Below are positions 35,701 to 43,327 of a DNA stretch of 64,000 nt, piece after piece. Numbering within the stretch: the stretch's first letter is position 1; every line of letters starts with the position of its first letter. Under the pieces are notes generated by a model, which saw only the letters and a list, made by a program, of their open reading frames with translations, made no database searches and was not told the origin of the DNA. The stretch is from the NCBI GenBank assembly GCA_016214895.1, contig JACRMR010000002.1, forward strand, positions 250,001 to 314,000, in the 5' to 3' direction. The DNA comes from a candidate division KSB1 bacterium (lineage in GTDB: Bacteria > Electryoneota > RPQS01). The position numbers and the translations under genes are program-made.

Positions 35701-36128
35701 CCGATGCGCGAAGACGCGCACCCCCCGGCCCCCCACGGGATGTGGGGGGAGGGCCGACTCGCCGATTCCGGCCGGGCGAAGAAGAGCGGGGCACGTCAAT
35801 GCTCAGGAGACGTGCCGCCGCAGGGAGTGCCGACGCTCCGATTCCGGCCGCGCGGGGACGCACGGCTCGGCGAAGAGTTTCCCCCCCGGCCCCCCACAGG
35901 ATGTGGGGGGAGGGTTGACTCGCCGATTCCGGCGGGGCGAAGAAGAGCGGGGCACGTCCAGTCTCAAGAGTCGTGCCGCCGCAGGGAGTGCTGACGCTCC
36001 GATTCCGGCCGGGAGCCCCCGATGCGCGAAGACGCGCACCTCCCCGGCCCCCCATAGGATATGGGGGGAGGGGAGAACCGACGCTCCCGAGACCCCCCCT
36101 GCCCCCCCAAATCGGAATTTGGGGGGGG
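35701..36128. repeat. Palindromic repeat cluster 1 (three A-type, one B-type hairpin)
   Basis: The 733-base gap 35466-36198 has no convincing gene. It holds GC-rich imperfect repeats with two hairpin types. Type A has six C, then ACA, a short loop, and TGT plus six G; copies are at 35729-35749, 35890-35910 and 36048-36068. Type B has C-runs and AAAT pairing with ATTT and G-runs (36102-36127). The third A copy has ATA and TAT instead of ACA and TGT, a paired change that keeps the stem. Spacer sequence between A copies is also repeated (about 160 bp period). Confidence 0.85.
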
Positions 36129-36144
36129 ATACGAGGCGCAAAGA

Positions 36145-39456: not shown

Positions 39457-39840
39457 TCATATTATTTTTCCAATAATATAGCCGATGATTATGCCGACCA
39501 GCAGAGTAATGGTCAGAATGCGCGAGTCCACGACCGACTTCGCGTGGCCGCGCCGAGCGAGGAAGATCGAGGTGAAATATCCAGCGCCGTTAAGCAGCCA
39601 AACGACAGGCAAAGACAGTGCCTTTACGATCAAGGGGCCGGCCCACGGGATGAGGGCGATGAGCGCGGCCACACCGGAAAACGCCGAGGTCACGATACCG
39701 ACCAGAGCTGCGACGGCGGCAATCATCTTGCCTTCCACCCGTAAGACCAGGCCCAGCGCCACGATGCAGATCACGAGGGCAAGCGCCACGATCGCCCGGC
39801 GGTACTGTGCCCAGAAGATAGCGAATTGCGGTGTGTACAT
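39457..39840 (-). CDS. Small membrane protein, unknown
   Basis: The 127-residue protein starts at the ATG at 39840 with AGAGGAA in front. It shows hydrophobic segments near residues 16-34 (AIVALALVICIVALGLVLR), 38-75 and 108-126 (ILTITLLVGIIIGYIIGKII), so three or four membrane spans are likely. No family motif is recognised. It stands alone upstream of the large secreted-protein gene, on the same strand, and next to the second repeat array. Confidence 0.65.
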   Translation of the reverse strand: MYTPQFAIFWAQYRRAIVALALVICIVALGLVLRVEGKMIAAVAALVGIVTSAFSGVAALIALIPWAGPLIVKALSLPVVWLLNGAGYFTSIFLARRGHAKSVVDSRILTITLLVGIIIGYIIGKII

Positions 39841-39958
39841 GGGTTCCTCTGGACAGAAAATACGGCTTCGCCGGGCGAGATTCAAGGGGCAGTGTGCAGG
39901 TTTTGGGCGGATCGGAGGGAGAATGCACGGGAAAAGGCGGAAGATCGGAAGAGCGGTG

Positions 39959-40440
39959 GGTACCCCGAGACCCCCCCTGCCCCCCCAAATCGGAATTTGG
40001 GGGGGGAGCGGCTACGGCGGAAGATGCGCGCAGACGCGCACCCCCCCGGCCCCCCACAGGATGTGGGGGGAGGTCCGACTCCGCGAGACCCCCCCTGCCC
40101 CCCCAAATCGGAATTTGGGGGGGGGAGCGGCTACGGCGGAAGATGCGCGTAGACGCGCACCCCCCCGGCCCCCCACAGGATGTGGGGGGAAGTCCGACTC
40201 CCCGAGCCCCCCCCCTGCCCCCCCGAATCGGCATTTGGGGGGGAGCGGCTGCGGCGGAAGATGCGCGCAGACGCGCACCCCCCCGGCCCCCCACAGGATG
40301 TGGGGGGAAGTCCGACTCCCCGAGACCCCCCCTGCCCCCCCAAATCGGAATTTGGGGGGGGAGCGGCTACGGCGGAAGATGCGCGCAGACGCGCACCCCC
40401 CCGGCCCCCCACAGGATGTGGGGGGAGGTCCGACTCGCCC
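39959..40440. repeat. Palindromic repeat array 2: four tandem composite units of about 118 bp
   Basis: Each unit has a B hairpin (starts 39980, 40098, 40218, 40335) followed about 70 bases later by an A hairpin (40050, 40169, 40287, 40405). Connecting sequence with ATGCGCGCAGACGCGCAC-like content is also conserved. B pairs seven C plus AAAT with ATTT plus seven G around CGGA; A pairs CCCCCCACA with TGTGGGGGG around GGA. B4 has small changes in the arm and loop. The units are nearly identical, so the array expanded recently. It runs directly into the lpxH-like gene. Long open frames through it code only for Pro/Gly/Arg-rich sequence and are not genes. Confidence 0.9.
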
Positions 40441-41147
40441 ATTTGGGGGCGGTTCAGGGCGAGGCGGGACAGGTGCAACGGCGAAACCTCTTTGAGCTGC
40501 TCGAGCGGGCCGAAGCGGAGGCCAAGTCGCTGTTCGTGGTCGGCGATCTGTTCGACTTCTGGTATGAGTGGGCGACCGTGATCCCGAAGCAGCATTTCGC
40601 GCTCCTGCACCGGTTTCGGGCGCTCGTAGAGCGGGGCATCGCCATCCACCAACTTTCCGGCAATCATGATTTCCGGCTCCATGGATTCCTCGAAACGGAG
40701 GTCGGCCTCACGACCCACCTCGACGGCGTGCATGCGCGGATCCACGAGCAATCGGTGTTCATCTTTCACGGCGACGGGATCTTGCAACGCGATACGGGCT
40801 ATCGATTCGTGAAACGTGTGCTGCGCAGCCCGGTGTCGCAACGAGTGTTTTCGTGGATTCACCCCGACCTGGGCATGCGGTTGGCGCGGGGCACGAGCAT
40901 GACCAGTCGTAAGGTCATCAAGGAGAACCCGCACGATGACGTGGAGTTCCTGGCGTTCGCGCAGGAGCGCTTTCGCGACGGATACGACGGTGTGATCATG
41001 GGGCACACGCACCGCCCGGTGGAGCATCGTGAAGGGCAGCGGACTTACGTGAACCTCGGCGATTGGATCCAGCACTACAGCTACGCGGTGCACGACGGGA
41101 CTGAACTCAAGTTGCACCGCCTGCACGAAGATCGAGCGCGGCCATGA
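40416..41147 (+). CDS. LpxH-like UDP-2,3-diacylglucosamine hydrolase, N-terminus replaced by repeat
   Basis: From about residue 8 the protein matches LpxH-type metallophosphoesterases: HLGA, GDLFDFWYEW, SGNHDF, FHGDG and GHTHRP are the metal-binding motifs. The enzyme removes UMP to make lipid X for lipid A. Normally the chain begins with a strand ending in (S)DxHLG. Here the sequence before HLG is repeat array 2 (RLAHLG), so the Asp of the DxH motif is Leu. The only nearby in-frame ATG (40416) lies in the loop of the last A hairpin and has no good ribosome binding site. It may be a damaged gene, or active with altered metal binding. ATGA overlap with the PBP gene. Confidence 0.7.
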   Translation: MWGEVRLAHLGAVQGEAGQVQRRNLFELLERAEAEAKSLFVVGDLFDFWYEWATVIPKQHFALLHRFRALVERGIAIHQLSGNHDFRLHGFLETEVGLTTHLDGVHARIHEQSVFIFHGDGILQRDTGYRFVKRVLRSPVSQRVFSWIHPDLGMRLARGTSMTSRKVIKENPHDDVEFLAFAQERFRDGYDGVIMGHTHRPVEHREGQRTYVNLGDWIQHYSYAVHDGTELKLHRLHEDRARP

Positions 41148-43327
41148 GCGATGCCGCGACCCGGGCGGAGACCGCGAGCAGCCGACGAGTCCGGCGCACG
41201 CTGTGGATCATCGCCGCGATGGCCGGCTTCGTGCTCGTGCTGTTTCTGGCCGGCTGGCGGTTCTATATCCAGCTGCGCGGCGGCATGCCGGCCGTCGAAC
41301 AATTAGAGAATTTCGATCCGCTGCTCAGTACCAAGCTGCTCGACCGGCAAGGCGAGGTGCTCAAGGAGATCTATACGCAGCGGCGGTTCTACACGAGCCT
41401 GAGCGAGACGTCGCCGCGAGTGGTGCAGGCGATCCTCGCGACCGAAGACCACAAGTTCTACGAGCACTGGGGAATTCGCCCGCTGGCGTTGTTCGGCGCC
41501 GTCGCCAAAGGGGTGCTCCGGCTTGATTTTCATTTCCGCGGCGCGTCAACACTGACGCAGCAGCTGTCGCGCAACCTGCATTACACTTCCCAGCGGTCGA
41601 TGATGCGCAAGCTGCGCGAAGCCTTGACGGCGGTGGAGATCGAACGGTACTATTCGAAGGACGAGATCCTCGAGATGTACCTCACGCAAACGTATTTCGG
41701 AGCCGGAGCGTACGGGGTCGAAGCGGCGGCGAATACTTACTTCAGCAAGAAGGCGGCGGACCTCTCCACCGAGGAGGCGGCGCTGATCGCCGCGATTCCG
41801 AAGTCGCCGACGCGCTACAATCCAATCAACAATCCGGAAAACGCGTTCGCCCGGCGCAATCTGGTGTTGGGCCGCATGGCCGCGGTGGGATACCTCAGCC
41901 CGCAGGGCGCGGACAGCCTGAGCAAGCTTCCGATCGCGCTGGAGACCGCGACCGCGCAGGGTTCGCTCGGCATCGCCCCGTACTTCACCGAACAGGTACG
42001 GCAGCAGCTCAACGGCATCGGGAAGCAATTCGGATTCGATCCGTATCACGACGGCGTTACGGTGCGGACCACGATCGACGCGCGGCTGCAAGCCTGCGCG
42101 GAAGCCGCCGTGGCGCGGCAACTCCCGCTCGTGCAGAAGAAGGTGCGCGTCGTGTTCGGCGAGAAGGAGCTGGGCGAGATTCTGGCGCGGAATTATCCCG
42201 ATTCGTCGCTCAAGGCGCGCCGGAAGCTGGCCTCGGACAAGAAGTTCGTGGATTCGCTCGCGCGGCAGGTGATGCCCGTCCAGGTCGCCTTCGTCGCGCT
42301 CGATCCGCAGACCGGTGCGATTCTGGCCATGATCGGCGGCCGCGATTTCGAGGAGTCCAAATTCAATCGCGCCGTACAGGCGATCCGCCAGCCGGGTTCC
42401 GCCTTCAAGCCGTTTGTGTACGCCAGCGCGCTGGACAAGGGAGTGCCGATCTCGCAACATGTTTCCAACGAGGAGATTACGATTCACCTCGACAACGGAG
42501 ACGTGTGGTCGCCGGGAAACTACGATCTGGATTACGGCGGCGAGGTGGACCTGCGAACCGGACTCAAAAAGTCGCTGAATGTGGTCTGCGTGCGGCTGAT
42601 TCGCGAGTTCACGACGCCCAAGGATGTCGCCGAGCTCGCGCGACGATTGGGAATCACGACGCCGATCGATCCGTACGATGCACTGGCCCTGGGGTCGTCC
42701 GGGGTGATTCCGCTGGACCTCGTGGCCGCGTATCAGGCGTTCCAGTCGGGCGGCATCTGGTCGAAGCCGATGTACATGACCGGCATCGACGACGCCGCGG
42801 GACAGGAGATTGTCTCGTACCGGCCGGAGCGCAAGGCCGTGCTCTCCGAGGAAACCGCGTTCCTGACGCAAAGCCTGTTGCGCACCGTGTGCGATCATGG
42901 CACCGCCGCGGGGCTGCGCTCCGAGTTCAAGTTCTACGAGCCGGCGGGCGGCAAGACGGGGACCACCAACGATTACACGGACGCGTGGTTCGTCGGGTTC
43001 ACGCCGCAGCTCATCGCGGGCGTGTGGGTGGGACTCGATGACCCGGCCAAGCCGCTCGGTCGCGGCATGCAGGGCGCGCGCGCCGCGCTGCCGATCTGGG
43101 CGGAGTTTGTCCGCGCGGCGTACGACAGTCTGGATTACCGGCATCAGGATTTTCCGGTGCCGCGGGGAATCGGCACGGTCGATGTGTGCGACGATTCGGG
43201 TGAATTGGCCACGACGAATTGCCCGTACACGCATGCCGAATTTGTCAATACGAAACTCGCTCAACTCGAGTCGTGCCGGATTCACGGCAGCTCGGGTCCG
43301 CGCAAACGAAAGCCAAGTCTCTTTTAA
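41144..43327 (+). CDS. mrcA: Class A penicillin-binding protein (PBP1A type)
   Basis: The 727-residue bifunctional enzyme has an N-terminal membrane anchor (residues about 20-42) and a GT51 transglycosylase domain, with ATEDHKFYEHWGIRP near 105-119 and GASTLTQQLSRNL near 133-145. A transpeptidase domain follows, with Ser419 in PGSAFKPF (SxxK), SLN in KKSLNVV (SxN) and KTGTTNDYTDAW (KTG). It polymerises and cross-links peptidoglycan in the periplasm. It overlaps the lpxH-like gene by four bases, so its expression may depend on translation from that gene. Confidence 0.94.
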   Translation: MSDAATRAETASSRRVRRTLWIIAAMAGFVLVLFLAGWRFYIQLRGGMPAVEQLENFDPLLSTKLLDRQGEVLKEIYTQRRFYTSLSETSPRVVQAILATEDHKFYEHWGIRPLALFGAVAKGVLRLDFHFRGASTLTQQLSRNLHYTSQRSMMRKLREALTAVEIERYYSKDEILEMYLTQTYFGAGAYGVEAAANTYFSKKAADLSTEEAALIAAIPKSPTRYNPINNPENAFARRNLVLGRMAAVGYLSPQGADSLSKLPIALETATAQGSLGIAPYFTEQVRQQLNGIGKQFGFDPYHDGVTVRTTIDARLQACAEAAVARQLPLVQKKVRVVFGEKELGEILARNYPDSSLKARRKLASDKKFVDSLARQVMPVQVAFVALDPQTGAILAMIGGRDFEESKFNRAVQAIRQPGSAFKPFVYASALDKGVPISQHVSNEEITIHLDNGDVWSPGNYDLDYGGEVDLRTGLKKSLNVVCVRLIREFTTPKDVAELARRLGITTPIDPYDALALGSSGVIPLDLVAAYQAFQSGGIWSKPMYMTGIDDAAGQEIVSYRPERKAVLSEETAFLTQSLLRTVCDHGTAAGLRSEFKFYEPAGGKTGTTNDYTDAWFVGFTPQLIAGVWVGLDDPAKPLGRGMQGARAALPIWAEFVRAAYDSLDYRHQDFPVPRGIGTVDVCDDSGELATTNCPYTHAEFVNTKLAQLESCRIHGSSGPRKRKPSLF

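Follow-up and report, generated by a model that had tools for sequence, protein, structure and literature searches.

LpxH, the UDP-2,3-diacylglucosamine pyrophosphatase (PDB 5b49, 5k8k), relies on a set of Mn ligands that begins with Asp8 (numbered as in Pseudomonas aeruginosa LpxH, PMC6286764). In the Haemophilus influenzae enzyme, alanine changes of several individual Mn ligands cost three to five orders of magnitude of activity (PMC6286764). A second residue, the phosphate contact Arg80, is particular to LpxH, and its position is usually occupied by His in other phosphoesterases of the superfamily (PMC6286764). The same study describes LpxH2, an LpxH-like protein of unknown role in which the LpxH cap sequence is absent.

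Two other kinds of described system bear on the locus reported here. Intergenic palindromic repeats of the REP/BIME kind are short GC-rich hairpins that are present in many copies, mainly between genes, and arranged in arrays. Local misassembly at repeats has been described for metagenome-assembled genomes (PMC7111523, PMC10914622). Contigs produced by MEGAHIT share ends of length maxK, where the list of k values is 21, 29, 39, 59, 79, 99, 119 and 141 (COBRA, PMC10914622), and local assembly errors that are left unmended put wrong gene sequences into databases (PMC7111523).

The window analyzed here is a stretch of 64,000 nucleotides (contig C2, positions 250001-314000) from a metagenome-assembled genome of 3.21 Mb in 26 contigs that is 97.9% complete. 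Within it, a hairpin-repeat array directly precedes an lpxH-like gene that lacks its start. As judged from the assembled sequence, this absence very probably reflects a local error that arose in the short-read assembly or in the underlying library. The only lesion is the junction itself; elsewhere the gene is undamaged. The order of the DUF gene, lpxH and pbp1A is identical in relatives, indicating that both flanks belong together and that the damage is local; the DUF gene keeps its place and orientation in six of them (G001, G003, G006, G009, G010 and G011).

Features surrounding the junction between the repeat array and the lpxH-like gene (window positions)
Feature	Position	Strand	Remarks
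DUF gene, conserved ~127-aa membrane-like protein (MYTPQFAIFWA...)	39457..39840	-	divergent neighbour of lpxH
Adapter-like word AGATCGGAAGAGCGGT	39942..39957	+	5 bp left of array
Four-unit 118-bp hairpin-repeat array	39963..40436	+	units head-to-tail, 118-119 bp each
In-frame ATG within last hairpin of array	40416..40418	+	upstream sequence CCCCCCCGGCCCCCCACAGG, no ribosome-binding site
Array/gene junction, GCC	40437..40439	+	fits repeat consensus (CGACTCGCCGA) and Ala codon of SDAHLG alike
lpxH-like gene minus first ~20 codons	40440..41147	+	235 codons, HLG to stop
Penicillin-binding protein 1A-like gene (pbp1A; Transgly + Transpeptidase)	41144..43327	+	next gene in relatives too

The initial annotation had placed the loss of similarity where the fourth repeat unit ends, and this holds: the array ends at 40436 and homology begins at the His of the HLG motif (40440), or at 40437 if the preceding Ala codon is included. 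All 12 of the closest relatives, which belong to the same family and order, carry PxVYF(L/V)SD(A/I) followed by HLG or HIG, whereas the in-frame residues before HLG in the window read ...MWGEVRLA. The lpxH start codon, the VYFxSD segment and the first Mn ligand are thus missing from the window, with Leu in place of Asp8, and the earlier observation that only HLG remains of this motif is confirmed by comparison with the 12 relatives. An intact DxH is present in every relative compared, a family-level comparison with genomes that lack the array. The 13 bases preceding HLG, GGTCCGACTCGCC, fit the repeat consensus, other copies reading GGGCCGACTCGCCGAT; the GCC at the junction could instead be an Ala codon.

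The loss is larger than first described. With the array subtracted, ~126 bp separate HLG from the start codon of the DUF gene (39840, minus strand), compared with 232-316 bp in six relatives, and therefore the promoter region is missing together with the first ~20 codons. The missing gene start noted by the initial annotation is real as a feature of the assembly, to which we add that the spacer and promoter region are short too, the window falling ~106 bp short of the ancestral spacer plus gene start. A search of the genome with the degenerate pattern VYFxxDxH gave no match for the lost 5′ piece. Simple insertion of the array, which would leave the 5′ half of the gene to its left, was rejected on inspection by eye of positions 39841-39962, where no VYFxSD is encoded. 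Among 60 relatives there was no genome of the same genus, and no independent assembly of the species was found; the nearest relatives are only ~60% identical.

Several features of the assembly point to its method and to its weak spots. Six pairs of contig ends (C13e/C7e, C13s/C23s, C17e/C23e, C17s/C7s, C21e/C9e and C2e/C8e) are identical for exactly 141 bp, read inward from the ends, and then differ. Matches of 400 among C6, C15, C16, C18, C19, C24 and C26 were set aside because they stem from withheld stretches that appear as N, as a check of C15 showed. Because this length equals the largest k of MEGAHIT, a short-read de Bruijn assembly of the MEGAHIT type is indicated. The ends of C2 and C8 and the starts of C13 and C23 run through a composite repeat containing the hairpin family of the array, demonstrating that the assembler broke at such repeats. 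Within the array, unit 1 (39963-40081) and unit 4 (40318-40436) are identical over 119 bp, which is the next-lower MEGAHIT k and is bounded by the array's own edges, although this match to k is weak because the array has a period of 118. The locus resembles published local misassemblies in its maxK shared ends, its repeat-associated join and the resulting wrong protein-coding sequence (PMC7111523, PMC10914622). It differs from them in that the error is deduced from the finished assembly rather than from reads, and in that an adapter-like word marks the edge.

This word, AGATCGGAAGAGC, is a 13-nt Illumina adapter core at 39942-39954 that ends 8 bp left of the array. It occurs nowhere else in the 3.2-Mb genome and was found 0 times in 100 dinucleotide shuffles of the window, odds that should be discounted somewhat since the word was noticed after the fact. 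The adapter match extends over 13 nt for the core and 16 nt for one older adapter before it diverges; all 16 nt of AGATCGGAAGAGCGGT match what we take to be an older Illumina paired-end adapter. A blastn search of the genome with the 77-bp left flank returned no real second copy, which argues that AGATCGGAAGAGCGGT is not a word of the repeat family; a decayed repeat copy as the source of the flank was rejected on the same result. The word is either residual adapter sequence or a natural word at which read trimming opened a gap in coverage, and with either origin the join is suspect. Our literature search found no paper on adapter-driven misassembly of this kind.

The array itself, which separates lpxH from the divergent DUF gene, is probably a genuine intergenic member of a genome-wide repeat family. 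In each unit, folding gives a short hairpin and two long GC-rich ones (z -4.4 versus shuffles), and a real array at this locus is plausible because the family is real and multi-copy. The repeats share with REP/BIME elements their GC-rich hairpins, copy number, mainly intergenic location and arrayed arrangement, a likeness of appearance; the unit here differs in combining two long hairpins with a short one. More copies of the hairpin repeats lie at window positions 35721-36130, between two genes, and include a tandem of 161 bp (1.8 copies). At C20:305548-306067 another array of the ~118-bp unit begins immediately downstream of a gene's stop codon.

Downstream of the junction the gene is well preserved. 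Its 235 codons are open, with no stop or frameshift, and alignment shows that the metal-site His, Asp, Asn, His, His and His are kept as the equivalents of H10, D41, N79, H114, H195 and H197. Of the Mn ligand set only D8, which the relatives have, is absent from the window. Identity to seven relatives is 50-61%, compared with 49-71% among the intact relatives over the same columns; the corresponding values for the neighbouring penicillin-binding protein are 54-65% and 52-79%. Since the identity falls within the range of intact relatives, there is neither lasting decay nor faster divergence.

The genome also retains other parts of the lipid A pathway. LpxC is intact in a gene run that, by sequence and position, looks like bamA, ompH/skp, lpxD, lpxC/fabZ and lpxA, and LpxK is present. 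The initial annotation had proposed that another isozyme might compensate for a lost LpxH, a proposal that gained no support from the searches for LpxI, which is absent from this genome and from 12 relatives, or for a second LpxH-like gene, where the protein search gave a single match in this genome. With LpxC, LpxD, LpxA and LpxK present and LpxI absent, the organism presumably needs the LpxH step. Six other Metallophos matches exist in the genome, one of which, on C7, starts like a YmdB-type protein. LpxB is absent from this assembly and present in all 12 relatives. A large PHP/glycosyltransferase gene situated near lpxB in relatives likewise has no good match in this assembly, and with this neighbour absent as well, a contig missing from the assembly seems a better explanation than the loss of a single gene. 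The two genes are kept together in several relatives.

Of the three explanations offered by the initial annotation (a new N-terminus, a damaged gene or an assembly error), the last is best supported, by the 141-bp ends, the break at repeats, the adapter-like word and the intact relatives. We infer that the start of the gene is intact in the cell and that the reads would not support the junction. GC-rich hairpins, ~118-bp units that are nearly identical and the adapter-like word at the left edge would make the site hard to sequence and assemble. The assembler probably fused a repeat unit, at its end, directly to the Ala-His-Leu-Gly codons of the gene, a join that would have lost the tail of the repeat, the promoter and ~20 codons. 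A variant of this artefact, in which a natural AGATCGGAAGAGC was trimmed as adapter and the resulting cut in coverage to its right led to the faulty join beside a genuine left flank, seems very improbable. Adapter trimming removes everything 3′ of the adapter word and the flank is otherwise unique sequence, as this variant would have it, but a natural 13-mer so near the array is improbable when ~0.1 are expected genome-wide by base count. Still harder to credit is a functional protein with a working N-terminus supplied by the array, whether from ATG 40416 or from another start. The reading frame is indeed uninterrupted across the full array, as far upstream as GTG 39831, and the His of DxH survives along with every later ligand. 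The ATG at 40416 is the nearest in frame and, as had been described, is embedded in a repeat hairpin, with its A in the 3-nt loop of CCCCCCACA/TGTGGGGGG and its TG in the stem of this stable structure. Other possible starts are TTG 40443, with GGGAGG at least 14 bases upstream, and GTG 40473. A well-placed ribosome-binding site was found at none of these three candidates, and each product would lack both Asp8 and the first beta strand (VYFxSD), which is kept in 12 of the 12 nearest relatives. The change of this Mn ligand to Leu weighs against function given the cost of ligand-to-Ala changes in H. influenzae LpxH (PMC6286764). The DNA thus appears to give no sign of a working new start, and the proposed replacement of the gene start by the array, with an ATG of repeat origin, is not upheld: this ATG has no ribosome-binding site, any resulting protein is one metal ligand short and the signs point to assembly error.

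A genuine, very recent deletion or rearrangement of the array, affecting the cell or a fraction of the population, would have removed the promoter and start and left a non-functional fragment. This is unlikely, although the repeats form an active or abundant family (65 blast matches in the genome) and lost codons of GAC GCC would make CGCC a possible 4-nt microhomology at the join. The absence of LpxB and of its PHP/glycosyltransferase neighbour would also fit decay of lipid A synthesis, but absence of the lpxB neighbourhood as a block fits a missing contig in a genome of this completeness. Also opposed to a true truncation are the remaining codons without decay, the intact LpxC, the presence of LpxK and of the LpxD-LpxC-LpxA run, and the adapter-like word at the array edge. 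In a broader form, the junction is real, the array has very recently cut the promoter and start from the only LpxH-like gene, and the lineage has also lost LpxB, its lipid A synthesis either decaying or being completed by an unknown enzyme; we regard this as quite improbable.

With local misassembly most probably the cause, we judge that the feature is probably not real biology and that a new N-terminus is unsupported. Taken at face value, the locus would suggest a phylum in which lipid A synthesis is being lost and intergenic repeats able to rewrite where an essential enzyme begins. Being a probable assembly error, the locus instead calls for caution before truncated genes in such genomes are interpreted. 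Two signs give a quick warning: contig ends that share exactly 141 bp, and an adapter word next to a repeat.

The identity of the protein is a separate matter from its truncation. Against the NCBIfam LpxH models NF003743 and TIGR01854 it scores 91.4 bits (cut-off 134) and 80.7 bits (cut-off 190.35). Intact relatives, at 73-102 bits, are also below both cut-offs (134 and 190), showing that the low scores characterize an LpxH-like clade and are not due to truncation alone. Similarities to LpxH include a calcineurin-like fold by homology, partly alike cap-region residues, and a host genome with LpxA, LpxC, LpxD and LpxK and no LpxI; apart from the loss of D8 at the junction, the proteins differ from LpxH in that Arg80 is replaced by His throughout the clade, as seen in the window sequence and in each of the five relatives aligned. 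An LpxH-like phosphoesterase sequence is shared with LpxH2, and His at the Arg80 position is the residue usual for other phosphoesterases of the superfamily (PMC6286764). By context the protein would act like LpxH, but we refrain from assigning it formally to that family; together with its counterparts in this clade it may constitute a separate LpxH-type family. Across the clade, GNHDF (window 40683-40697) is found where LpxH has GNRDF.
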